In this document: one piece after another, positions 5,139 through 62,015 of the stretch
Position numbering within the stretch: the first letter of the stretch is position 1
How the letters are laid out: every line of letters starts with the position of its first letter
Virus record (IMG/VR): IMGVR_UViG_3300035390_000014
Location: 62,001 to 126,000 of that record
Source of the DNA: a virus
DNA length: 64,000 bases
Reading direction: 5' to 3' (one strand)
Made by a program: the position numbers and the translations under genes
Notes under the pieces: model-generated
Told to the model about the DNA's origin: nothing
Seen by the model: the letters and a program-made list of their open reading frames with translations, nothing else
Databases searched by the model: none

Positions 5139-5891
5139 TTATTCCTCTATCAAACTGCTTCTACCATAGATAGAAATATCAATATCACCAATAGCAGTTT
5201 TAAAAGTATTTGAGCAAATCTGTTCTTGATAATTATACATTTTCAATTCAATTTTTCCATCATGGTCAATAATAAATGGAGTATTAGTCAAACTACTAGT
5301 ACATTCCATTGGACGTTCTAGAGTAATAGCAGATAGAATTTTAGCACTTTGATCATGCCCCTGAGTTTCCATAGTAATAGAAGCTACTTCATTCTCAAAT
5401 GAAATTTGTGTTGAATTTACATTGAAACTCTGAGCAATAATCCTCATTCTGTCTGAGATATTTAGCTCTATATCAGTTGCTAGAATTACATCTTCTTCAT
5501 TCAATGTAAAAATATGCTCAAGTTCCTCGGATGTAATAAACCTATTATCCATGTATTCAAGCTCTGGGCCTTGAAATTTAATAGAAGAATATTCATCTGA
5601 AAAAGTAAAATTTCCATCATCATCTACAACAATATCAATGGTTTGACTCTGAGTCGAACTTTGACTCAAGAAGATTTTTAACAAATCTAATTTTTGTTTT
5701 AGGTTAACCAATGGTACATCAAGTGTATCAATAATTGGAGTCATATCAATTTCAAATACATTGGCATTATCATTAGTTCTCTGTCTCAGGATTCCACCAT
5801 GAATGTCTGCATCATTGCAAACATCTTTTAAAATTGACAAACATCTCAAGAATTGTTCATAATTCTCCATACTCATATTCACTTGTTCCAT
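5139..5891 (-). CDS. DNA polymerase sliding clamp (gp45-like)
   Basis: A 250-aa processivity factor, close to T4 gp45 (228 aa). Pattern: N-terminal YEQFLRCLSILKDVCNDADIHGGILRQRTND, a repeating strand-rich core, and a C-terminal half with SDRMRIIAQSFNVNSTQISFENE and IDHDGKIELKMYN, as in clamp half-domains. It should load around DNA through the clamp loader encoded at 8312-9295. No DNA polymerase gene lies in this window. The start ATG has AAGGAG upstream. Confidence 0.8.
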   Translation of the reverse strand: MEQVNMSMENYEQFLRCLSILKDVCNDADIHGGILRQRTNDNANVFEIDMTPIIDTLDVPLVNLKQKLDLLKIFLSQSSTQSQTIDIVVDDDGNFTFSDEYSSIKFQGPELEYMDNRFITSEELEHIFTLNEEDVILATDIELNISDRMRIIAQSFNVNSTQISFENEVASITMETQGHDQSAKILSAITLERPMECTSSLTNTPFIIDHDGKIELKMYNYQEQICSNTFKTAIGDIDISIYGRSSLIEE

Positions 5892-6302: not shown

Positions 6303-7292
6303 TTAGCTTAAAATATTTGTACAGCTTATATTAATTGGAGTATCATTAAAATCTTTACCTGTTTTGTTATAATAAACATGTAAGGATTTAATTATGTGTT
6401 TATTATATTTCATAATTTTTTCATAGTAACTTATCGGTATTTCTCTATCTGAAAGAATATGTATTGTAGGTCTAAATATTAATTCATTGAAAATAACGCT
6501 TTTAATAGCTGCTACATATGAAGTTGATAATGCTGCTATATAAGCTCTTACTTTATTTTTTATACCTAATACATCATATATATGTTCCGCATATATATCA
6601 AATATTCCCTCTGCCATTATTATATGATTTGAATCTCTTCTATTTCCAAATAATTTATAATAGTCTAAAAGCTGGGAAGGTTGTAAATCTAATTTATAAT
6701 ATCTAAAATTTGATGTTCCATCTATATTTCTCAATGACACGCATGAATTATTTTCAGTTAAAAATCCAACAAAATTTGTATGCAAATAATCTTTAAATCT
6801 TATAACTTTTTCTGGTAATTGAATATTATTAATTTTTAATAATTCATTTACATCAAATACTAAACCTGGTACTGTTGATAGAGGTATATTAGCAAATTTA
6901 AATCTTTGTTTGATATATAAGGCTTTTAATTTAAAATAATCCTCTCTTAAGTCTGGTAAGGTTATATCTTTTGGTTTATAAATATTTTTTTCAAATTTTA
7001 CTTTTTCTACTTTAAAATGTTTAACTTGCTCCTGATTAACATATTTTATAGAAGTATCATTACCTTCTATTTTTTCTGTTAATTTTCTTATTAAACCACT
7101 TTGATTACACCCACCTCTAAAACAATGAAATATTGGATCATGTAGAGATATCCATAAATGACTTTTACTACTTGACATAGTTTTATCACACCAAGGACAA
7201 GGAACAATAATATTTTTAGGATTCATTTTAACTGGACCTAAATTTTGCTCCAAATAATCTATAAATCCATCATTATATATTCCTACTGTCAT
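6303..7292 (-). CDS. DnaG-type DNA primase
   Basis: A 329-aa primase. The N-terminal zinc-binding domain has CPWCDKTMSSSKSHLWISL...FHCFRGGC (residues about 32-65). The TOPRIM core shows HIIMAEGIFDIYA (catalytic Glu) and later IHILSDREI (acidic motif). It would make RNA primers for lagging-strand synthesis. It is shorter than bacterial DnaG and lacks a visible C-terminal helicase-interaction domain. Lies upstream of the clamp in the same direction. Confidence 0.82.
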   Translation of the reverse strand: MTVGIYNDGFIDYLEQNLGPVKMNPKNIIVPCPWCDKTMSSSKSHLWISLHDPIFHCFRGGCNQSGLIRKLTEKIEGNDTSIKYVNQEQVKHFKVEKVKFEKNIYKPKDITLPDLREDYFKLKALYIKQRFKFANIPLSTVPGLVFDVNELLKINNIQLPEKVIRFKDYLHTNFVGFLTENNSCVSLRNIDGTSNFRYYKLDLQPSQLLDYYKLFGNRRDSNHIIMAEGIFDIYAEHIYDVLGIKNKVRAYIAALSTSYVAAIKSVIFNELIFRPTIHILSDREIPISYYEKIMKYNKHIIKSLHVYYNKTGKDFNDTPINISCTNILS

Positions 7293-12136: not shown

Positions 12137-13369
12137 CTATCCCCAGTAATTATAAATTATAAATAATTTTTCCTTCGCTCTAGTCGCTGCAGTATATAAC
12201 CATCTTGCATAATCTTGATCTGATTGATATCGGTTTCGTTGTTCAAATAAAACAACTTTATCCCATTCAGATCCTTGACTTTTATGTACAGTTGTAGCAT
12301 AACCAAAATCAAACATATCAATGTCTTTTTGATCATACCGTTTCATGTCTTTAGAGAATGTTCTCTTAAAATCAATTTCCATCTCGTCATTGTAATTATC
12401 TTTACCAAAAGCACTTCTAATTGCAAGACTTGAATGTAAATTGTCTTCATAATCATCCATCTTCATTGTCAAATCATATAACTTTTTACTTGCTGGATAA
12501 ATCCAAACTAAGGTTCCCAACTGACCATTTTTAATCCCAGAATCATGATTATTCTTCAAACATATAACTCTTTCATCTGGGTAAGGATTAGGTAATGTAT
12601 ATCCCAATTTATCTCGAGTTTTCATATTTAAATCACACCGAGTTTTATTGAACCCACATAATTGAATAATATCTTTACCCTCTTCTGACCAATTAATTTT
12701 ATCATAGAGAGTTTTAGTTTGAGGTTTGCCCCAATCCAATTTAAAAACAGATCCATCATAAATACCAGGTCTTATATAACCATAACGTCTGATATCTATT
12801 GTCAATTGAATTATTTTACTATCAAGAGCTTGTCTATGAATTTCATGTAATTGTAGATCAGCATCTTTTAACAAATCAAATTTAGGACCAACTGGAGGTA
12901 ACTGACCATGATCACCACAAACAATAATTGGGATTCCATACCGATTTAAATCATCCCATAATTCTTTTGATACCATGCTTCCTTCATCAACAATAATCAA
13001 ATCAACATCTAATTCATCTTTCAGTGCCCACCCGGATAAAATCTTTTTACCATTTTTTCTTTTATATACCGGAGTATACAACAATCCATGTATAGTTCCA
13101 ATGTAATCATAATCTTTAGCAGAATGATTCTTTTCAAGTTTAGTAGCTAATACATGAGCTGCTTTACCAGCAAAGGCACAGAAGGCAATTTTATGGGCAC
13201 CACGTTTTCCTAAATCATGATTAAAACGAATTTTCAATGCAATCTCTGTCATGACTGTTGTCTTTCCAGTTCCAGCATATCCAACTATTCGTAATACATT
13301 TGTTTTCTTTAATCTGTACCACTCAAGTGTTTCGTTTAAAACCATTAACTGCTCTTCTGTTAATTCCAT
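12137..13369 (-). CDS. Dda/RecD-like superfamily 1B helicase
   Basis: A 410-aa 5'-3' DNA helicase similar in length to T4 Dda (439 aa). Motif I GYAGTGKTT (about 30-38), motif II LIIVDEGSM (about 126-134), motif III CGDHGQLPPVG, a KNNHDSGIKNGQLGTLVWI SH3-like segment, and the C-terminal ATTVHKSQGSEWDKVV and YTAATRAKEKL motifs. Expected to help origin firing and fork restart. Four bases separate it from the membrane protein gene. Confidence 0.87.
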   Translation of the reverse strand: MELTEEQLMVLNETLEWYRLKKTNVLRIVGYAGTGKTTVMTEIALKIRFNHDLGKRGAHKIAFCAFAGKAAHVLATKLEKNHSAKDYDYIGTIHGLLYTPVYKRKNGKKILSGWALKDELDVDLIIVDEGSMVSKELWDDLNRYGIPIIVCGDHGQLPPVGPKFDLLKDADLQLHEIHRQALDSKIIQLTIDIRRYGYIRPGIYDGSVFKLDWGKPQTKTLYDKINWSEEGKDIIQLCGFNKTRCDLNMKTRDKLGYTLPNPYPDERVICLKNNHDSGIKNGQLGTLVWIYPASKKLYDLTMKMDDYEDNLHSSLAIRSAFGKDNYNDEMEIDFKRTFSKDMKRYDQKDIDMFDFGYATTVHKSQGSEWDKVVLFEQRNRYQSDQDYARWLYTAATRAKEKLFIIYNYWG

Positions 13370-13371
13370 TA

Positions 13372-13986
13372 TTACCCCTCGTTAATAATTTTAATATCTT
13401 TAAAAACTTCAATGTTTGAATGTGAGATTTTAAATAGAGTATATTTACCAAGATATTTATAAACAGCTTTATGATAATCTGGATCTCCACCCACATAATA
13501 CTTTAAAGCTAATGTTATATCTCCATTAGACTTTTTTAATTTCGATTTTAATATTGCTATTCCCTTCTCAATATTATATGAAATATCAAAAGCTCTCTCA
13601 GGTAAAATTTCAACTCCATCTTCTAGTAATATTTGCATCAACCCTTTAGCACCAGCCTTGGATTTAGAATAAATATTCCACATAGATTCTATTTCTATGA
13701 TACCAACAATAATATCATCTGCTATATGATTTAATCTACATTGAGTTATTATTTCATAAGCAATTTTATCAGCAACTTCTGTTGGTGTAGATGTTTTTCG
13801 AGTTTTAATATATTTACTCAATAACTCTATCTCTCTATCAATCTTAATTTCTTTAACAATTTTTTCTTCAATTATTACTGTTTGAGTATTGTCAATTGAA
13901 GCATTTGTCAAATTATAAAATGCAAGTGATGCCATTATAATAATAAATGAAAACGCTCCAATCCAACCTAATTTACCCTTAAACAT
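13372..13986 (-). CDS. Membrane-anchored lytic transglycosylase
   Basis: A 204-aa protein with an N-terminal signal-anchor (IGAFSFIIIMASLAFYNLT, about 9-27), a charged linker, and an SLT domain: IVGIIEIESMWNIYSKSKAGAKGLMQI (catalytic Glu in IEIES), then GIAILKSKLKKSNGDITLALKYYVGG. It would cut peptidoglycan, either at lysis or as a virion-associated enzyme. The nearby small membrane genes suggest a lysis cluster. Confidence 0.78.
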   Translation of the reverse strand: MFKGKLGWIGAFSFIIIMASLAFYNLTNASIDNTQTVIIEEKIVKEIKIDREIELLSKYIKTRKTSTPTEVADKIAYEIITQCRLNHIADDIIVGIIEIESMWNIYSKSKAGAKGLMQILLEDGVEILPERAFDISYNIEKGIAILKSKLKKSNGDITLALKYYVGGDPDYHKAVYKYLGKYTLFKISHSNIEVFKDIKIINEG

Positions 13987-13995
13987 TATAATCTC

Positions 13996-14175
13996 CTATT
14001 TAAAAATTAAAAAAGCTATTTTTAGAATTCCTATCACCCATGGAATAAATAATAAAAATATGAATCCTACAAAACATGAAAATAATAATCCAACCAATTT
14101 TAATTGGTCTATTCCATTTGAAGATGTATCAATTTTATTTTCTAATCCAAACCATTTTAAAACTTTTTCAATCAT
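13996..14175 (-). CDS. Small membrane protein next to the transglycosylase (possible holin)
   Basis: A 59-aa protein: soluble N-terminal half (MIEKVLKWFGLENKIDTSSNGIDQ) then a strongly hydrophobic C-terminal half (LVGLLFSCFVGFIFLLFIPWVIG). AAAAGGAGAA and a GAACAT promoter box lie just upstream. Nine bases separate it from the transglycosylase, so a lysis role is plausible but unproven. Confidence 0.6.
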   Translation of the reverse strand: MIEKVLKWFGLENKIDTSSNGIDQLKLVGLLFSCFVGFIFLLFIPWVIGILKIAFLIFK

Positions 14176-14190
14176 ATTAAATTCTCCTTT

Positions 14191-14204
14191 TTTAATATGT
14201 TCTA
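14191..14204 (-). promoter_or_regulatory. GAACATATTAAA promoter-like box
   Basis: Minus-strand TAGAACATATTAAAAAAGGAG immediately before the lysis-like genes; it marks the start of the long minus-strand block. Confidence 0.55.
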
Positions 14205-14243
14205 TTAGTACAGATTAATTTCTTATACAAATACTGGTTCTAT

Positions 14244-14264
14244 TATGTATATTAATATATATAG
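14244..14264 (-). promoter_or_regulatory. CTATATATATTAATATACAT box, minus orientation
   Basis: Exact copy, in reverse orientation, of a box also found at 37801, 52701 and 54723. It lies in the divergent region between the minus- and plus-strand halves of the window. The core TATATTAATATA is palindromic, so it may bind a dimer or be part of a promoter. Confidence 0.55.
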
Positions 14265-14364
14265 AAACTAACTTAATACTATGGGAACATTTCTTTTTTT
14301 ATTGTAACATAATTAAAAGTATTAAAAGAGTAGATTTATAGAGAATTTAGTAAAGGAGAATTGA

Positions 14365-15387
14365 ATGCAATTATTGAGTGAGAGGGGATTTAATAGGCAT
14401 ATATATCCTATAATCCCATATCGTGGAAGAGATTTAAGTAAAGAATATTATGTTAAAAAAGATCCGCAAGGAAAAATTATATTTATGGCAACTAAAGATT
14501 CCAGGTGGAATCTAAGATGTTATAAATTTATGGATTATTTATCTACATTAATTAGAAAACAATTTGATGATTGGATGGTTCAATCAAATCCTGGGTTGGG
14601 ATTAGTAACAGATTATAGAGACCCAAGGTTATCCCAATTTAGTTTATATACAAGACCTGATAATATGTATTATATATTAAAAGGAATGAAAAGTATAGGA
14701 GGAAGAGATTGGGATACATTTAATCCATATAATAAGAATATAAGAATTAATTATAAAGAAGTTGCAAAAGCTTTAAAGTGGGAAAAGAAACATGTTAAAA
14801 CTATAGTTGAAATGATTTCTAATTATAAATTTAGAACTAAATATGAATTTAAAACTGTTGATGTTGATCTTAAAACAACTCCAACCTTTAAAGCAAATTA
14901 TAATAATTTAGAATATAAAACTTTTGAAAGTATATTTAATGCTGAAATTGGTGTTACTAATAAATATAAAGATGGTGATGATCTTAGATTTTTAGATAGA
15001 GGTATAGATGATATAGATATTAATTTTCGCACAGGATTTGGAGTTTGTTTTATCCATAATATTTTTACCGGTGGTTATCAATTAATTAATGAAGATGAAC
15101 CATTATATAATTTATCTGAAAGTACTCAAATTATATATAGAGATAGATTTTTTACATTTAATAAAATGAAACATATTTATTTGAATGATGAATGGATATG
15201 TAATAAACTAGGAATAACTACCAATAATGTTACAGCTAAAAAAAATATAATTAAAAAAATTATAGATGAATTATCCAATATTGAAAAGATTAATTTTGAT
15301 AGGATATGTAATAATGGAAGTTATCAATTTTCTATTGGGAAGAAAAAGAAATCTAATGTAATTCCACTAAGACAATCAAAAGTTTAA
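14365..15387 (+). CDS. Putative replication initiator (Rep-like)
   Basis: A 340-aa protein that is the first gene of the plus-strand half. It shows no obvious enzyme motif. Lys-rich helical segments and a possible winged-helix region (INYKEVAKALKWEKKHVKTIVEMISN) are visible. Its stop codon lies inside the first of five 18-bp iterons (15383-15509), and that layout, plus its divergent position, is the main reason to call it an initiator that binds them. Plasmid Rep proteins have similar length. An iteron-binding transcription regulator is the alternative. Confidence 0.45.
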   Translation: MQLLSERGFNRHIYPIIPYRGRDLSKEYYVKKDPQGKIIFMATKDSRWNLRCYKFMDYLSTLIRKQFDDWMVQSNPGLGLVTDYRDPRLSQFSLYTRPDNMYYILKGMKSIGGRDWDTFNPYNKNIRINYKEVAKALKWEKKHVKTIVEMISNYKFRTKYEFKTVDVDLKTTPTFKANYNNLEYKTFESIFNAEIGVTNKYKDGDDLRFLDRGIDDIDINFRTGFGVCFIHNIFTGGYQLINEDEPLYNLSESTQIIYRDRFFTFNKMKHIYLNDEWICNKLGITTNNVTAKKNIIKKIIDELSNIEKINFDRICNNGSYQFSIGKKKKSNVIPLRQSKV

Positions 15388-15509
15388 CGATATTGTAAAA
15401 AAAACTCATTTTTTTACTTTTACAATATCGTTAAAGAGTTTTTACAATATCGTTAAAGAATCTTACAATATCGTTAAATAAAATAGGCGATTTTTACAAT
15501 ATCGTTAAA
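15383..15509. repeat. Five-copy iteron array, candidate replication origin
   Basis: TTTTACAATATCGTTAAA occurs once inverted (15383-15400) and four times direct (15418-15435, 15440-15457, 15461-15477 with one change, 15492-15509). Direct copies start 22, 21 and 31 bases apart, close to two, two and three helical turns. The inverted and first direct copy can also fold as a hairpin after the Rep-like gene, possibly doubling as its terminator. The surrounding DNA is AT-rich. Confidence 0.7.
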
Positions 15510-15681
15510 TTACTATTTGAATATTAATAATGATTAGAATAGGTTATAAGGTGCTTTTTACCATTAAACCTTAAGTTAAAAACTTATAAAAGGAACTAGT
15601 TATCTATAACATTAAATTAAGAATAAAATCAATATTTAAACTACTAATGGAATGTATTTTTACTATGTACACAGACACCCC

Positions 15682-15775
15682 ACTCTACTTACGCCTTGGG
15701 GCGACATAGAGTTCTATTCAACCGTCCTATGTCATTTAATTAAAATCAGGTAACATATTAAAGAGTAAGTAGAGT
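15682..15775. other. Structured inverted-repeat element upstream of the plus-strand virion genes
   Basis: ACTCTACTTAC (15682-15692) pairs perfectly with GTAAGTAGAGT (15765-15775). Inside lie the hairpins CGCC-TTGG-GGCG (15692-15703) and GACATAG/CTATGTC (15703-15733), giving a possible three-way junction. A TAACATATTAAAG promoter-like box (15751-15763) lies within it. It may be an origin element, an RNA leader or an operator. The rest of 15510-15810 has no gene. Confidence 0.5.
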
Positions 15776-15810: not shown

Positions 15811-17853
15811 ATGAATTATGAAGATTTAAAGTGGATTAACCAGTCATTGTATTCATACAAAGACAAACAGTTTGACTCGAATGGATACTTAGATATTTCA
15901 ATAAACCTTAACACAGAAGATGACATAAACTTCAGTCAACCTAAACTAGTTTTTAATCTAGATAACTTAGGACAGAGAAGAAATGTTAGATTATCATATT
16001 CAAATGTATTAGATTTATTAATGTCTTTTAATGTAGCAATGAAAAATAAAACAGAAGTATATGCAAATCCTCAACAAGGTGACATAACAAAAAGATATAA
16101 TAAAAATAAAGATTTTACCTTTGAATTTAGAGCTTTAAATTCACAACCTTTAGTGGTAATGAAAATTAAACATAATGATTCAGATGAAGGTAAAATAATT
16201 TTTCCATTAGAACCTGAGTTTATTACTATAGGTAAACTACTAAGAATATTTGAGATAGAATATTCAAATTTTGCAATAAATTTGCCTAATAGATATCTTA
16301 CTAGTCTTAGTGCCAATAGACAATTAGAAATGGTTAATTTACTTAGGGCATTACCTAGTCAATTAGTTCCTATTCAAAATGAACAATACCCAGATAGAAG
16401 AGAAGAGATAGAACCATCAATCAATTCAGCTAGCTCCACAGATATAAAATATACAGGTACGCGCTGTGCTAAGTGTGGAGAAGATCAGTTTGATACTCCA
16501 AGTGGGATAACTTGCAAGAATGGTCATGGTGGAGCAGATAGTATAGATGATGCTGCACAAGCAAATGAGTTTGAACAATTTGCTTTAGAAGAGGAGCCAA
16601 AAGTTCGTATTCCTGAGTTAGAAAGTGATGCTTTAGAACCAAGAGAAGCTATATCACAAGAGTATAAGAGTCCGTTTATTGAGCGTACATTGAAGAATAA
16701 TATCCTTAATCTACAAGAGATGTTATACGCGTTATTTACGAACCCTAACCCTTTAAGAACCATTATGGACACGATCAATGAGGGTCAAGGTTATACATTT
16801 TTACCTGGTGTAACTGAAAAAGATTTGAAGTCTATATTGTATATTTCTAATTTATATTTTAAGATGAATTTTCATAGTTATATTAAAAATCAAACTGGAT
16901 TCCCAAGTGCTATCCCTGTTGTTAAATATTTTGGTAATGATGAAGATAGAGATACGATTGAATTGAGTTATGACTTAATGATGATTAGTGCATATCTAAA
17001 ATTGTATAGAAATAGAATGGAATCTATTAACTCTGATCCTTACACTAATGGAGCATTAACACATTTCTCTTTTAGATGTTTTCTTGATGTATCAACATAT
17101 AGTTATTTAAATGGTAAAAATCCAGAAGCTATTAAAAATATAGTAGTATCAAGATTTAAATATTTTAGAGAAACTGGTTTCTTTGATAATTTTGATAAAA
17201 ATTTAGTTGGTGAAAATCAAAAACCAATCTATGAAAATGAAATTGGTGAGTTTGTTGATAAGGTATTTGATAATGTAGTTGAATCAGAAGATATTAACAT
17301 TAGACACTTTAATGCTTATGATGCAACGTCTGTGAAATTACCTCCTGATAATAATTTTAATTTAGAACAAATTACAAATGAAATAGTTAAATATGAGATA
17401 AAAAGTTTGTTTGGTCAAAGAATAGAAGATTTGTCAAATGATGAAGAAATTATTCTTTTATTTAATAAAAAGACTAGAAAAAAAATAAAACCAACTGACC
17501 ATAGACCAGAAAAAAGAAAAGTTGAAACTCATGTTTTAAGATATGTCAAATTGAAAGCTAATGAATTATCAGAAGCTAATAGACAACCTTTTATTGATTA
17601 TGTTGAAGTAATGGAAGGAGAATATAACTTTTTTAATGATCAATTTAAAATGGAAGAATTACCTGAAGTTATATTGCAAACAATTTATACATGGAATAGT
17701 TATATTCTTGAACATATGAAATATACAGATTTTGTATTAAAAGTTGAAGAATGTATAACCAAAGATTTAATTATTTCAAAGATTAAAGAATTATCTGATG
17801 AACCAGTTGAAGATGTTGGTTGGGTTGATGCACTAAGCGAAATAGAATTATAA
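15811..17853 (+). CDS. Large hypothetical protein with zinc ribbon
   Basis: A 680-aa protein, not recognised. The N-terminal 200 residues are beta-rich. A flexible region holds a zinc ribbon (TRCAKCGEDQFDTPSGITCKNGHGG, about 214-238) and an acidic stretch. The C-terminal 400 residues are alpha-helical. AAAGGAA precedes the ATG. Being first in a run of long genes with unknown folds, it may be a virion or DNA-transaction protein; neither is shown by sequence. Confidence 0.5.
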   Translation: MNYEDLKWINQSLYSYKDKQFDSNGYLDISINLNTEDDINFSQPKLVFNLDNLGQRRNVRLSYSNVLDLLMSFNVAMKNKTEVYANPQQGDITKRYNKNKDFTFEFRALNSQPLVVMKIKHNDSDEGKIIFPLEPEFITIGKLLRIFEIEYSNFAINLPNRYLTSLSANRQLEMVNLLRALPSQLVPIQNEQYPDRREEIEPSINSASSTDIKYTGTRCAKCGEDQFDTPSGITCKNGHGGADSIDDAAQANEFEQFALEEEPKVRIPELESDALEPREAISQEYKSPFIERTLKNNILNLQEMLYALFTNPNPLRTIMDTINEGQGYTFLPGVTEKDLKSILYISNLYFKMNFHSYIKNQTGFPSAIPVVKYFGNDEDRDTIELSYDLMMISAYLKLYRNRMESINSDPYTNGALTHFSFRCFLDVSTYSYLNGKNPEAIKNIVVSRFKYFRETGFFDNFDKNLVGENQKPIYENEIGEFVDKVFDNVVESEDINIRHFNAYDATSVKLPPDNNFNLEQITNEIVKYEIKSLFGQRIEDLSNDEEIILLFNKKTRKKIKPTDHRPEKRKVETHVLRYVKLKANELSEANRQPFIDYVEVMEGEYNFFNDQFKMEELPEVILQTIYTWNSYILEHMKYTDFVLKVEECITKDLIISKIKELSDEPVEDVGWVDALSEIEL

Positions 17854-17870: not shown

Positions 17871-18494
17871 ATGTCATTATCACTTGGAAAATTGTTCGAC
17901 AGAAACTATACTATGAGAATTCCATTTCTAGATGGATACTACAACATTGGAACATTTTTTAATAAAAGATCAACAAGTCTCTTATTCAGTGTTGAACCTG
18001 AGTTTGTTAATAGTAATACCAAACATGGTATCAAAATTAATATGTTTAAGAATTTAAAATCATCTAAATTTACTGAAACATTTTTAAATCTTCATAATTT
18101 TAGAAAGAATACTTTAGATATTATGAATCAATTCGAGAATATTAAAGATGATTATTCATATGAAATTGGATTTATTTTAAATGAAACATTGAAACTATCT
18201 AAGGTTGAAATAAATGGAAAATATCTATATGATGTTTTAAATTTATATGGATTTACAATGACCTCATATGATAGTGAGTTTGTTTTCATTATTGCTGAAA
18301 GACAAAATATACTTAAAAAACTTGGAAAGAAAATGGTTCGTACTACTGGAATCCAAATAAGTACTAGTAATGCTTTGGGTCTTTTAGATGAATTTCATAA
18401 AGAATCCAGGGAGTGTGGTAGAGAAGGGTTACAACCAAAACTAATAATTCCATCTGATGAAAAGGAAATAATCTCATTAGATGATATAGATTAA
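17871..18494 (+). CDS. Hypothetical protein (207 aa)
   Basis: Not recognised. Mixed alpha/beta, with SLGKLFDRNYTMRIPFLDGYYNIG at the start and an acidic tail. AAAGGAAA precedes the ATG and 17 bases separate it from the large zinc-ribbon gene, so they share a transcript. A structural or assembly role is possible by position. Confidence 0.5.
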   Translation: MSLSLGKLFDRNYTMRIPFLDGYYNIGTFFNKRSTSLLFSVEPEFVNSNTKHGIKINMFKNLKSSKFTETFLNLHNFRKNTLDIMNQFENIKDDYSYEIGFILNETLKLSKVEINGKYLYDVLNLYGFTMTSYDSEFVFIIAERQNILKKLGKKMVRTTGIQISTSNALGLLDEFHKESRECGREGLQPKLIIPSDEKEIISLDDID

Positions 18495-28910: not shown

Positions 28911-30503
28911 ATGATGGTAAAAAAAATATCTTTTATAAAACTTATTAGATTATGGGGTATTATTTTTATAAGTTCACTTGTTGGTATTATTATTAGTATT
29001 GACATTATTATTACCTATAATGATTTTAATATTCGTATGGATACATTACGTACAAATTATATTAAACAACAAAAAAAAGATGTTAAACGTGAAGTTAATC
29101 GAGTTGTTGAGATGATTAGTTGTGAAAGAATGCAAGATAAAAATGATGAACATACAAAAAGAAGATGGTTAGAAAGAATTAATTATATACGTTTCGGAAA
29201 AAATGATAATGGATATTTATTCGCAGGATCGTGGGATGGAATTAGTCTTGCCCATGGAGATATACCCGAACTAATTGGTAAAGATATTTTAGATTTTACT
29301 GACAGTAAAGGCAATAAAACATCACAACTACTAATAGCTACTTCAAAAATTGAAGGTGGAGGATTTGTTCCTTTTTGGTGGATAAAACCAGATACAGGAA
29401 TAGAAAGTTCTAAGATTACATATGTTGAAGGAATACCAGACTGGGAAATGCTTATTGCTGCAGGAATTTATGATGATGATATAGAGCATGATATAACAAT
29501 TTTACATAATACATTAAATGAACAAATGATATCAAAAATTGGTGTTTTAATTATATTTATTATAATTACATTTTGTGTATTTATATTTCTATTTAATTTT
29601 TTAAGTGGTAAACTAAAAAAAGATTTTAATTTATTTATTTCATTTTTTAAAAATGCAGCTTTATCTGATAAAAAAATTGATAATAAATTTATTAACTATA
29701 TAGAGCTTGAACAAGTATCAGAATATATAAATCAGATGATACAAGATAAATCAGATGTTCAACAAACTATATCAGACGAAAGATTGAAAACTGAAAGACG
29801 TTTAGAACAATCAAGAAAAATGGAATCAATTGGAACATTAACGTCTGGTATTGCTCATGATTTTAATAATATTCTTTTTATAATAAAAGGTAATATTGAA
29901 TTATTGATGATGACTGATAAAAATGAAAAGTTTGATATAATAATAAAAGCTAGTAATCGAGCTATAAAATTAATTGAACAAATTACATCATTTAGTAGAC
30001 ATGATGATGTAGAATTAAAAGATGTTAATATAAAACCAATAATAGTAGAAAGTATTAATTTAAGCAAATCATCAATTTCAGAAAATACAAGCATTATAAG
30101 TGATATAAAAGATGGAAATTATATAGTTAAAACTGATGAAATAAAAATTGGACAAGTGGTTTTGAATTTAATAACAAATGCCTGTCATGCTGTTGAAGAT
30201 ATTGAAGGTAAAATTTTAATTAGTTTGAAAAATATAAATATTCATAATGGTGATTTAATTAAGAAAAATTTACCAAAAGGAGACTACGCTCAATTAAAAA
30301 TTACTGATAATGGGTGTGGGATTGATCCCGAAAATTTAGATAAAATATTTGATCCTTACTTTACTACAAAAGATATATCTAAAGGTACTGGATTAGGATT
30401 ATCTATTGTATATGGAATTATTAAAGAATCTAAAGGTTTTATTAATGTACAAAGTGAATTGAATATTGGAACTACTTTTGATATTTTTATCCCACTTGTT
30501 TAA
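28911..30503 (+). CDS. Membrane sensor histidine kinase with Cache domain
   Basis: A complete 530-aa two-component kinase. TM1 about residues 10-33. A periplasmic single-Cache-like domain (GYLFAGSWDGISLAHGDIPELIGKDILDF...WEMLIAAGIYDDDIE) and TM2 about 205-229 follow. The HisKA has GIAHDFNNILFIIKGNIELLM (His about 320), and the HATPase has NLITNACHAVED, ITDNGCGIDPEN and GTGLGLSIVYGI. No response regulator or HAMP is seen here. Base usage matches the phage, so it is not a very recent gain. It would act in the host membrane and phosphorylate host regulators. Confidence 0.85.
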   Translation: MMVKKISFIKLIRLWGIIFISSLVGIIISIDIIITYNDFNIRMDTLRTNYIKQQKKDVKREVNRVVEMISCERMQDKNDEHTKRRWLERINYIRFGKNDNGYLFAGSWDGISLAHGDIPELIGKDILDFTDSKGNKTSQLLIATSKIEGGGFVPFWWIKPDTGIESSKITYVEGIPDWEMLIAAGIYDDDIEHDITILHNTLNEQMISKIGVLIIFIIITFCVFIFLFNFLSGKLKKDFNLFISFFKNAALSDKKIDNKFINYIELEQVSEYINQMIQDKSDVQQTISDERLKTERRLEQSRKMESIGTLTSGIAHDFNNILFIIKGNIELLMMTDKNEKFDIIIKASNRAIKLIEQITSFSRHDDVELKDVNIKPIIVESINLSKSSISENTSIISDIKDGNYIVKTDEIKIGQVVLNLITNACHAVEDIEGKILISLKNINIHNGDLIKKNLPKGDYAQLKITDNGCGIDPENLDKIFDPYFTTKDISKGTGLGLSIVYGIIKESKGFINVQSELNIGTTFDIFIPLV

Positions 30504-34321: not shown

Positions 34322-34870
34322 ATGTATGATTTAGTGATATTGTATAGTGGCGGCGCAGATTCAAGAATAATGTTAGAACTTTGTAGAGAACTTGATCTTA
34401 AACCTTATTGTATTATGATTGATTATGGGCAACTTAATAAAGAAGAATTAAAATTTGCAACTAGTCATCTTGAAAAAGCATTGATTGATCACCATACTGT
34501 TTGGATTAAAGGATTGAATGTTGATAGTGGTTTAACAGGAAATGGAATCCCTGATTTTAGTGGAGATGTTCATACAATGCATGTCCCTGGAAGAAATACA
34601 ATGTTTCTTAGTATAGCATATAGTATTGCTGAAAGTAAAGGTATTGATACAATTTGGTTGGGAAGTGATTGGGATGATAGATTAAATTTATTTCCTGATT
34701 GTTATCAAGAATATATTGTTGCAATGAATGAGGCATTTAAATATGCAGGTCCAAAACCAATTAAAATAGAAGCACCTCTATCAGGTCTTTCAAAAGTAAA
34801 TATTATTAAGATGCTTAAAAGTAGAGGAATTGAGGAGCATGAAATCTTTTCTGGATATGGAGATTTGTAA
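34322..34870 (+). CDS. QueC-like (7-cyano-7-deazaguanine synthase) protein, C-terminally short
   Basis: A 182-aa ATP-pyrophosphatase. PP-loop VILYSGGADSRIMLEL (residues 5-20), YGQLNKEELKFA, HVPGRNTMFLSIAYSIAESKG (about 81-101), DCYQEYIVAMNEA and IEAPLSGLSKVNIIKML, all as in QueC. It stops at EIFSGYGDL, where QueC normally continues with a four-Cys zinc site (CxxC...C..C). Role may be 7-deazaguanine nucleotide or DNA modification in phage. No QueD, QueE or FolE is recognised nearby. Confidence 0.7.
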   Translation: MYDLVILYSGGADSRIMLELCRELDLKPYCIMIDYGQLNKEELKFATSHLEKALIDHHTVWIKGLNVDSGLTGNGIPDFSGDVHTMHVPGRNTMFLSIAYSIAESKGIDTIWLGSDWDDRLNLFPDCYQEYIVAMNEAFKYAGPKPIKIEAPLSGLSKVNIIKMLKSRGIEEHEIFSGYGDL

Positions 34871-43660: not shown

Positions 43661-44317
43661 ATGGATAATTCTTTATTTATAAATGAAATATGTATAGGAT
43701 TACTTGGTAAATGTAATTGGAATTGTAAATATTGTATAGCAAAGAATAATATTTCTTTTAATGAGGATGATATAATAGAACAAATAGTTCCTATGAAAGA
43801 TAAATTAAAAACATTGTGGTTATCTGGTGGTGAACCTGGAATATTATCTGATAATTTTTGGAACAAACTATTTAATTTAACAGAATATAAACTTAAAATT
43901 TGTACTAATGGAACATTTATTTTAAATGGATTTGCTGATAAATATGAATCTAAGATTAATGCAATTACGATTCATTGTGTAGAAGAATTAGATCAAGATA
44001 TTAATCCAATTGTTTTAAATTTTATTAAAACTACTAAAATTAAATTACAAGTCAATGTTGTTATACATAGATATAACGCTCATTTAATAAAATCTTTTTT
44101 ACAAAAATATAATGATATTAATATTGTATTTAATTTTTCTGATGAAAGCTTTTGCAAAATACCAGATTATAAATATTATATAAATAAAGATGCTGCAATT
44201 GAAATAATAAAGCAATTATCTGGTTTTAAACATTATGGTATTTATACAACACGTTTAGCTAAATGTATTATAAAAAATAATTTTAAATATATAAATCCAT
44301 GGTCAATCAAAAATTAA
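43661..44317 (+). CDS. Radical SAM protein
   Basis: A 218-aa protein with the canonical iron-sulfur motif CNWNCKYC (CxxxCxxC, about residues 15-22), SAM-binding TLWLSGGEPGIL (about 47-58), and IVFNFSDESF in the barrel. It is compact, lacking a C-terminal SPASM domain. The motif spacing is not the modified one of QueE. Substrate unknown; peptide or nucleotide modification are options. Confidence 0.75.
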   Translation: MDNSLFINEICIGLLGKCNWNCKYCIAKNNISFNEDDIIEQIVPMKDKLKTLWLSGGEPGILSDNFWNKLFNLTEYKLKICTNGTFILNGFADKYESKINAITIHCVEELDQDINPIVLNFIKTTKIKLQVNVVIHRYNAHLIKSFLQKYNDINIVFNFSDESFCKIPDYKYYINKDAAIEIIKQLSGFKHYGIYTTRLAKCIIKNNFKYINPWSIKN

Positions 44318-47074: not shown

Positions 47075-47464
47075 GGGGATGAAATGGTATCGCTATAGGT
47101 AGGAATTTTATACTGCGCTTCGTGAATGATTGAGTCACGTTAAAATTGATCATGTAAATACAACTGCAGACAATTTCGCAGATGATTACGCACTAGCAAT
47201 AGCAGCGTAATTCGTTCTAGTTAGTTTATATCTTCGGATTAATATAGGGCGTCGACTTAGAAGATTAGAATTATATTGGTTGGACATAAGATAATTCCAT
47301 GTGACTTTATAATTTGAAACTACTACAGAAATTTATCCTTCAACAATGTTGTTTTGTCAATTCCACATATAGTGATTTGTTGAAGTATTAAAAATTGACT
47401 ATAAGCGTAGATGTATTCTTGGAATATACTATATACTCGAGTTCGACTCTCGACATCTCCACCA
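47075..47464 (+). ncRNA. ssrA: Transfer-messenger RNA (tmRNA)
   Basis: 5' GGGGATG pairs with 3' CATCTCC, followed by A-CCA; the T-arm TCGAG-TTCGACT-CTCGA is intact. The central reading frame starts at about GTA 47154 and ends at TAA 47208-47210, giving tag VNTTADNFADDYALAIAA. It ends in a hydrophobic Ala-rich degron like the bacterial ALAA. Downstream T/A-rich stem pieces fit pseudoknots. It would rescue stalled ribosomes with host SmpB; no smpB is seen here. The resume codon is inferred. Confidence 0.9.
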
Positions 47465-49177: not shown

Positions 49178-49520
49178 ATGTGTAGTTTGTAGAACTGAAT
49201 TTGATCACGCTGAACTTGATGGGGCACGTGGTTGCCCGGTATGTGGTTATCAAGGACTTACTATGCTAACTAATGGAGATGTAGCTGTAAATATTAATTG
49301 GTTTGAACTTAGGTTGATATGTATGTGGGCTGAATCTTTAGCTTTACAAGTCGGTGATTCCCATAGTCTCAATGCTTTTTATTCAGTAGTTAATGAATTA
49401 AAGAAACAAATACCAGATTCTGGTAAAATAACAATGTTTGATAAAGCACCTGATCTCACTTGTGATTCAGATTATAATATAGATGATTTAGTAGTTCCGG
49501 ATGGGACGATATTCAATTGA
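49164..49520 (+). CDS. Zinc-ribbon hypothetical protein
   Basis: About 118 aa: RCVVCRTEFDHAELDGARGCPVCGYQG (rubredoxin-like CxxC pair), then a helical region (FELRLICMWAESLALQ...AFYSVVNELKKQIP) as in small phage proteins. ATG 49164 preceded by GGAGAA; overlaps HldE start. Confidence 0.55.
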   Translation: MKPIRCVVCRTEFDHAELDGARGCPVCGYQGLTMLTNGDVAVNINWFELRLICMWAESLALQVGDSHSLNAFYSVVNELKKQIPDSGKITMFDKAPDLTCDSDYNIDDLVVPDGTIFN

Positions 49521-50905
49521 AGACTAATAATGTTTTAGTGATAGGTGATATAATCCTTGATAAATATATCAAAGGTTCAGTATCCCGCATTTCACCAGAA
49601 GCTCCTGTTCCTATTATTAAAATAGATGATGAACATTACTCATTGGGTGGAGCTGCTAACGTAGCTAATAATTTATCCTCGTTAGGATGCAGTGTTAGTA
49701 TCATTGGTATCATTGGTCTTGATTCCGACGGAAATAAATTAAAACAATTATTTAAAGAAACTAATATTCATTGCTATTTTAATTATAATAAGAATTATAA
49801 AACAACATCTAAGACCAGAATAATTGGTAATAATCAACAGGTAGCAAGACTTGATTATAATGATAATAGTAAACCAGAAGAAATTAGTATTTTTACAATA
49901 GAGCAAACAATTAAAGATGTAATAGATCCATATGATATTGTTGTTATATCTGATTATGATAAAGGAGTTTGTACGAATAGAATATGTCGAACAATAATTC
50001 ATTTATGTAATCAAAAAAATATTCCAGTTATCGTTGATCCAAAGGGAACTGATTGGGATAAATATAGAAAAGCATATATGATAACTCCTAATCTAAAAGA
50101 AACATCTGAGTTAATTGGTAATGAAATTAAAAATACTAATATACAGATTAATGCTAAATGTAGAAATTTAAATGATCAAGTTAGATCTCAATACTTATTA
50201 ATAACAAGATCAGATAAAGGAATGTCTTTAGTTGATGAAGCTGGTATTATTCATATACCATCTAAATCTAAAGAAGTCTTTGATGTTACTGGTGCTGGTG
50301 ATACTGTTATAGCAACTATTGCAGCATTTATTAATAGAATGAAAATAATTGATGTTATTAATTTAGCTAATAAAGCGGCTGGAATAGCAGTATCAAAAAC
50401 AGGAACATCAACAGTAACACAAGATGAATTGAATAATGATCCTATTAGTAATAAGATAATGACTGTAGATTCTTTAATGAAACATGTTAAATTATGGAAA
50501 CAAAAAGAAGAGTCTATCGTATTTACTAATGGTTGTTACGATCTATTTCATAAAGGTCATGCTCATTCAATACATAAAGCATCTGAACTTGGTAATCGCT
50601 TAATAGTTGCTATTAATTCAGATGAATCAGTTCATAGAATTAAAGGTGATAATAGACCATTAAACAATGAATATGATAGAGCATTTGTTATAGCATCTAT
50701 TAATAATGTTGATGCAGTAATTATATTTAATGAGGTTACACCAGATAACATATTACAATTAATCAGACCCAGTGTATTAGTTAAGGGTGGGGATTATATG
50801 CTTCATGAGATTGTAGGAAGAGAATATGCGGATAGAGTTGAAGTTATTAATTATTTACATGGTTATTCAACTACTAAGATGGTTAAAAAAATAGAAGGTA
50901 AATAA
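49517..50905 (+). CDS. hldE: HldE: bifunctional heptose-phosphate kinase / adenylyltransferase
   Basis: A 462-aa enzyme of ADP-heptose synthesis. The N-terminal PfkB kinase domain has VLVIGDIILDKYIKGSVSRISPEAPVPIIK, LGGAANVANNLSSLG and the catalytic DVTGAGDTVIATI (about 257-269). The C-terminal nucleotidyltransferase domain has IVFTNGCYDLFHKGHAHSIHKAS (about 335-355), VAINSDESV and LVKGGDY. Full length as in bacteria. The TTG start overlaps the preceding stop. It would feed heptose to the GT9 enzyme at 22077; GmhA and GmhB are not recognised, so host steps are needed. Confidence 0.88.
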   Translation: MKTNNVLVIGDIILDKYIKGSVSRISPEAPVPIIKIDDEHYSLGGAANVANNLSSLGCSVSIIGIIGLDSDGNKLKQLFKETNIHCYFNYNKNYKTTSKTRIIGNNQQVARLDYNDNSKPEEISIFTIEQTIKDVIDPYDIVVISDYDKGVCTNRICRTIIHLCNQKNIPVIVDPKGTDWDKYRKAYMITPNLKETSELIGNEIKNTNIQINAKCRNLNDQVRSQYLLITRSDKGMSLVDEAGIIHIPSKSKEVFDVTGAGDTVIATIAAFINRMKIIDVINLANKAAGIAVSKTGTSTVTQDELNNDPISNKIMTVDSLMKHVKLWKQKEESIVFTNGCYDLFHKGHAHSIHKASELGNRLIVAINSDESVHRIKGDNRPLNNEYDRAFVIASINNVDAVIIFNEVTPDNILQLIRPSVLVKGGDYMLHEIVGREYADRVEVINYLHGYSTTKMVKKIEGK

Positions 50906-62000: not shown

Positions 62001-62015
62001 GAACATATTATAAAA
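62001..62015 (+). promoter_or_regulatory. GAACATATTATAAAA promoter-like box
   Basis: TTAGAACATATTATAAAAAGG directly before the endonuclease ATG at 62026; the box merges into the ribosome site. No surrounding inverted repeat here, unlike 47482 and 53760. Confidence 0.6.

Follow-up and report, generated by a model that had tools for sequence, protein, structure and literature searches.

A putative RepE-like initiator and adjoining iterons point to a plasmid-type replication origin in T4-related giant phages

Can a giant relative of phage T4 start copying its DNA in the manner of a plasmid? T4-related phages are textbook cases of origin firing by R-loops, followed by recombination, and have no established iteron-binding initiator. 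The question is raised by a 340-amino-acid open reading frame (ORF) and five short repeats at its end in a 64,000-nucleotide stretch of viral DNA (hereafter the window), which spans positions 62,001 to 126,000 of the 202,719-base-pair (bp) IMG/VR record IMGVR_UViG_3300035390_000014 (G000). Distantly related to T4, the phage encodes a gp23-like capsid protein, a clamp loader (phrog_168, E 2.6e-56), a DNA polymerase, a UvsX-like recombinase, topoisomerase II subunits and a Dda-like helicase. A preliminary description, made from the sequence alone, had proposed that it may combine a plasmid-type initiator with a T4-type clamp, loader and primase. The replisome half of this proposal stands for the clamp loader, alongside polymerase, helicase, topoisomerase and recombinase, while the proposed sliding clamp (5139–5891) and primase (6303–7292) obtained no identification from PHROGs. 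The initiator half proved essentially right, given the fold match, the unique phased iterons, the conserved junction and the minima of guanine–cytosine (GC) skew. We consider it likely that the gene encodes a dual winged-helix iteron-binding initiator acting at the main early bidirectional origin. These giant phages probably start DNA copying in plasmid fashion, because the protein has a RepE-like predicted shape, the adjoining repeats are private to the locus, and the layout recurs in relatives with other repeats. The gene and its repeats are arranged as follows in window coordinates.

14365–15387, plus strand: putative dual winged-helix iteron-binding replication initiator, 340 amino acids, with homologues at the same junction in relatives and a predicted fold like RepE, pi and RctB
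15383–15400, minus strand: iteron 1, inverted, overlapping the initiator stop codon TAA (15385–15387)
15418–15435, plus strand: iteron 2, direct
15440–15457, plus strand: iteron 3, direct
15461–15478, plus strand: iteron 4, direct, matching at 17 of 18 bp with an exact 16-bp core
15492–15509, plus strand: iteron 5, direct

The 16-bp core TTACAATATCGTTAAA is common to all five repeats at the end of the initiator ORF, and four of the five match over 18 bp. The preliminary description had announced five 18-bp repeats with direct copies; all five copies are present, four of them at full length, and four are direct whereas the first is inverted. As it had also claimed, the array begins within the stop codon of the gene, and the direct copies follow each other near whole helical turns (22, 21 and 31 bp, or 2.1, 2.0 and 2.95 turns at 10.5 bp per turn). 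Its placement of the repeats at the strand-switch point needs qualifying, as the switch (13986 to 14365) precedes the gene and is some 1.1 kb away from the repeats. Several phased direct repeats of 17–22 bp adjoining the gene, a trait of iteron-plasmid initiators, are present. Across the whole record, the exact core occurs in this array and nowhere else. Clusters of at least four exact 14-mers within 200 bp number two in the record, the iteron array and a Cys-rich coding repeat, and no comparable cluster arose in 20 sequences simulated with a first-order Markov model. The Cys-rich coding repeats (TGTAATTATGCTTGCAC-like) occupy record positions 202050–202608 (L016), near the end of the record. 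Rfam gave no match in the region of the initiator and repeats.

Sequence searches of the 340-amino-acid ORF against Pfam, PHROGs, NCBIfam and the PDB returned nothing credible, and its tblastn matches in Vibrio phages (E 0.2–2) were rejected as spurious, being antisense to small ORFs. Profile comparison of the family with F RepE likewise showed no sequence relation, so that the family cannot be placed in any known sequence family. We modelled the window protein and the protein of a relative, G017 (31% identical), by AlphaFold from family alignments of seven and eight sequences, respectively; the two models are not fully independent because their alignments have sequences in common. With the window-protein model, the top 43 Foldseek matches in the PDB were all iteron initiators, including RepE, the Rep complexes 8ac8 and 8aan, pi and pPS10 RepA (best E 0.027, probability 0.96). 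Re-alignment (VIA Z) gave 8.9 for RctB over 207 residues, 8.0–8.4 for RepE entries and 7.7 for pi, against 4.8 or below for CRP-like regulators. The G017 model scored higher, with 11.3 for RctB, 9.9 for a RepE–DNA complex and 9.6 for pi (over 206 residues), after which came a gap to the winged helices of the origin recognition complex at 7.0 and below. The predicted models thus show two winged-helix domains arranged as in RepE and pi, and the fold of RctB domains 2–3. Structure prediction against RepA/RepE-type initiators was the check proposed in the preliminary description, and the protein passed it, with the second family member in agreement. Going by predicted fold and layout, the family probably functions like RepE, pi and RctB.

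No relatives came from viral contigs searched with only the ORF or only the clamp loader, and neither phage and plasmid collections (tblastn with family members) nor a genome-contig scan yielded relatives outside this clade. Relatives were instead reached through neighbouring genes: the capsid protein led to 23 contigs and a 207-amino-acid gene to 16 loci. Protein search and synteny placed the protein family at one fixed junction, in the order minus-strand Dda-like helicase, initiator, repeats and plus-strand gene of about 650 amino acids. Its flanks in the window are these.

12137–13369, minus strand: Dda-like helicase on the divergent side of the junction, with synteny in relatives
15811–17853, plus strand: 680-amino-acid protein of unknown function, flanking the junction on the right and conserved
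17871–18494, plus strand: 207-amino-acid protein of unknown function, conserved next gene and bait for relatives

Pairwise comparison supports several members strongly, at E 3e-31 (L076) and 2e-22 (L070) by BLASTP and at 7e-17 (G017), the two most divergent members (P0003 and P0005) still match each other at 2e-10, and the family profile finds matches in 9 of 28 records. G001, whose capsid protein is 95% identical, was set aside as a relative lacking the locus, because its contig is a fragment that stops short of the locus on both sides.

The repeats turn over among these relatives while their arrangement is kept. G017 carries four copies of a 22-bp unit, GAGGGTATATAAAGGTACACAT, spaced 22 bp apart; G006, G007 and G008, which have the same locus, repeat AAAAAGTATATTCATTACCC every 20 bp, in four full copies and a partial one; L076 has four copies of CCTATAACCTAGTTAAACTAT at 21 bp; and L075 has at least three copies at 21 bp, the first related copy starting at the stop codon. 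All these arrays begin no more than about 11 bp from the stop codon of the initiator gene, yet the iteron sequences are unrelated between arrays, and in the records tested no iteron occurs outside its own locus. In G012, the initiator gene is inverted and has two 23-bp copies at its 3' end.

The skew of base composition points to the same place. The global cumulative GC-skew minimum of the record falls just ahead of the gene:

14234 (record position 76,234), no strand: global cumulative GC-skew minimum of the 202.7-kb record

This minimum and those at 101,046 in G017 and 162,501 in G007 precede the initiator start by 131, 77 and 124 bp, respectively, in three divergent genomes. Within 100 kb of the locus in G000, 166 of 167 scored genes are co-directional with forks departing from it. 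Because GC skew is confounded with gene orientation, we compared fourfold-degenerate sites between leading- and lagging-coded genes. The two groups differ in G007 (p = 0.0002), so the skew there does not come from gene orientation alone; the difference was not significant in G000 (p = 0.19), G017 (p = 0.13) or G005, where lagging genes are few or the effect is small. G005, which is without the initiator, has its GC-skew minimum in the same junction. A terminus antipodal to the locus was suspected at 176 kb and then dropped: one relative has about 118 kb between the orthologues of the two ends of the window's record, which is therefore probably incomplete.

From these results, we infer the following course of events. 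The initiator, with two winged-helix domains like those of RepE, pi, RepA and RctB, would be made from the upstream promoter and bind the five iterons that begin in its own stop codon. It would then open the AT-rich DNA between the iterons and the 680-amino-acid gene and recruit or load the phage's own helicase and polymerase, and two divergent forks would leave the point where the left-going and right-going gene blocks meet. Recombination-dependent replication of the T4 type would likely follow later, as a UvsX-like recombinase is present. Two further elements would take part.

14304–14311, plus strand: GTAACATA, probable shared promoter element, 61 bp upstream of the initiator ATG
15510–15660, no strand: AT-rich stretch (about 20–22% GC), candidate unwinding element, tentatively placed

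The GC content at 15350–15650 is 20–22% against 30% genome-wide, but much neighbouring coding DNA is equally AT-rich, so this pattern does not single out an unwinding element. GTAACATA is also found 61 bp upstream of the 680-amino-acid gene. The word TATTGTAA, common to the iteron and the initiator promoter, was rejected as an operator, since it overlaps a GTAACATA motif preceding both genes. The DnaA box TTATNCACA is absent from the 64-kb window, where shuffling predicts 5.6 occurrences by chance; this fits independence from host DnaA without proving it. A GC-richer, hairpin-forming stretch lies upstream of the 680-amino-acid gene (15670–15735), and most relatives examined have similar hairpins before the corresponding gene, although the sequence is not conserved.

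Several observations weigh against an initiator at the main early origin. Model confidence is moderate (pLDDT, the predicted local distance difference test, 62 for the window protein and 67 for the G017 protein; pTM, the predicted template modelling score, 0.71), no Foldseek match of either model reaches E 0.001, and Foldseek alone gives mixed and weaker results for the G017 protein (one RepE match at E 0.044, TrfA at E 1.0). Sequence profiles link the family to no known Rep family. The junction has no such initiator in G022, G005, G020, L072, L074, L078 and L083, and L070 and L085 are unexplained exceptions that encode the initiator with no clear 20–22-bp iterons nearby; L085 has short 7-bp repeats in the interval where iterons lie elsewhere. 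The replication part of the skew is inseparable from gene orientation in G000 and G017. Finally, by analogy with F incC, iterons that follow a rep gene can serve copy control and not as the origin.

Were the 3' repeats such incC/incA-like copy-control or handcuffing sites, the true origin would be nearby, for example in the intergenic region upstream of the gene, just as the F plasmid has such repeats directly after repE besides ori2 upstream. However, no second iteron set exists anywhere in the window's record, G017 or G007, which leaves nothing for copy-control repeats to control by titration, and we regard this explanation as quite improbable. Another reading makes the protein a winged-helix transcription regulator and the repeats operators for its own gene and the 680-amino-acid gene, with replication starting elsewhere or by R-loops. 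Winged helices are indeed common in regulators, domains of CRP-type and other regulators occur lower in the structure match lists, the repeats lie 300–430 bp upstream of the start of the 680-amino-acid gene, and the candidate promoter word precedes both genes. Regulators nevertheless match a single domain at lower Z, whereas the full-length two-domain matches are initiators; the repeats adjoin the 3' end of the gene and so are remote from the candidate promoters, and the GC-skew minimum falls at this locus in three divergent genomes. We therefore find a regulator unlikely. Iteron copies 1 and 2 also constitute an 18-bp inverted repeat with a 17-nt loop, which could be a transcription terminator at the stop codon, the remaining copies being decayed duplicates. 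The stem is AT-rich, the arrays of the relatives consist of direct repeats only, and decay would not be expected to leave four direct copies that keep their phase and agree over 16 bp, so that a terminator seems very improbable indeed.

The proposed initiator and its iterons can be compared with several known systems. RepE of F, pi of R6K and RepA of pPS10 are alike in the predicted two-winged-helix fold, and iteron plasmids share the 17–22-bp helix-phased iterons and the rep gene adjoining them. The nearest geometry is that of F ori2, with spacings of 21, 33 and 22 bp, and the F incC repeats begin 2 bp after the repE stop. Unlike in these plasmids, the window protein lacks detectable sequence homology to their initiators, the locus lies in a giant T4 relative that encodes its own polymerase and clamp loader, the iterons are only 3' of the gene, and the window has no TTATNCACA box; a host DnaA box is found in many iteron plasmid origins, though not all. 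Phage lambda also has its own initiator gene, O, but the iterons lie within that gene and the host replisome is used. T4 oriE has 12-nt repeats with the repEA and repEB genes and resembles the window locus in its T4-related phage and evenly spaced direct repeats near a strand switch, whereas here the gene of a RepE-like protein abuts the iterons. RctB, the initiator of Vibrio cholerae chromosome 2, has the highest Z among the structural matches of either model and is larger than the window protein. According to one study (PMC5395669), RctB acts on 12-mers and 39-mers, as opposed to the 16–18-bp iterons and 340-amino-acid protein here. The evenly spaced repeats of T4 oriE, near a transcription strand switch, have an ill-defined role and no established association with origin activity (PMC3016281). 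GC skew of the kind that indicates bidirectional replication is present in about 30% of huge phage genomes (PMC7162821), a likeness to the present phages; the passages of that study that were searched name no initiator or iterons. Limited literature searches turned up no published case of a T4-related giant phage with a RepE-like initiator and iterons.

Among the relatives without the initiator, L077, L072 and L074 encode at the same junction a protein of about 160 amino acids with a CxCGCG...GHN zinc-knuckle-like motif (L077:4212–4703, L072:4331–4804 and L074:4260–4757). Repeats (TTCTTAGGG-like or ATCTTCATAGG) and an AT-rich palindrome begin at the 3' end of its gene. A tentative and rather doubtful extension would make the origin a replaceable cassette, in which initiator and matching iterons are exchanged or rapidly re-specified at a fixed junction; L072, L074 and L077/G005 would then use the unrelated protein of about 160 amino acids, with non-homologous initiators across lineages.

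Other genes of these phages were noted in passing. Three large ORFs resemble RNA polymerase beta/beta' subunits (L009:128–5920 and L011:3423–5765), so the phage has a multisubunit RNA polymerase alongside the T4-type capsid protein and replisome genes. A transfer-messenger RNA (tmRNA) with the tag ADNFADDYALAIAA is encoded at window 47075–47464 among many transfer RNA (tRNA) genes; tmRNAs are known in huge phages (PMC7162821). A tRNA gene with a CTA anticodon (L014:1768–1843, record about 147.7 kb) was called tRNA-Pyl by ARAGORN and is a possible amber suppressor. The window also encodes a sensor histidine kinase with Cache, HisKA and HATPase_c domains (28911–30503), and a QueC homologue and a radical-SAM protein (34322–34870; 43661–44317) that suggest 7-deazaguanine chemistry, perhaps for DNA modification. 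A PfkB kinase fused to a cytidylyltransferase (49517–50905), in the HldE-like layout of heptose synthesis, lies among several glycosyltransferase-like ORFs.

If the plasmid-type reading is true, these phages, with a RepE-like initiator and its own iterons side by side where the GC skew is minimal, would be a clear exception to the textbook picture of T4-related phages. The origins of these uncultivated giant phages would become predictable from sequence, and the locus would offer a direct way into the handover from a winged-helix initiator to a phage replisome. With their constant layout and iterons that differ wholly from one relative to the next, these loci would then provide a natural series for decoding initiator–DNA specificity.
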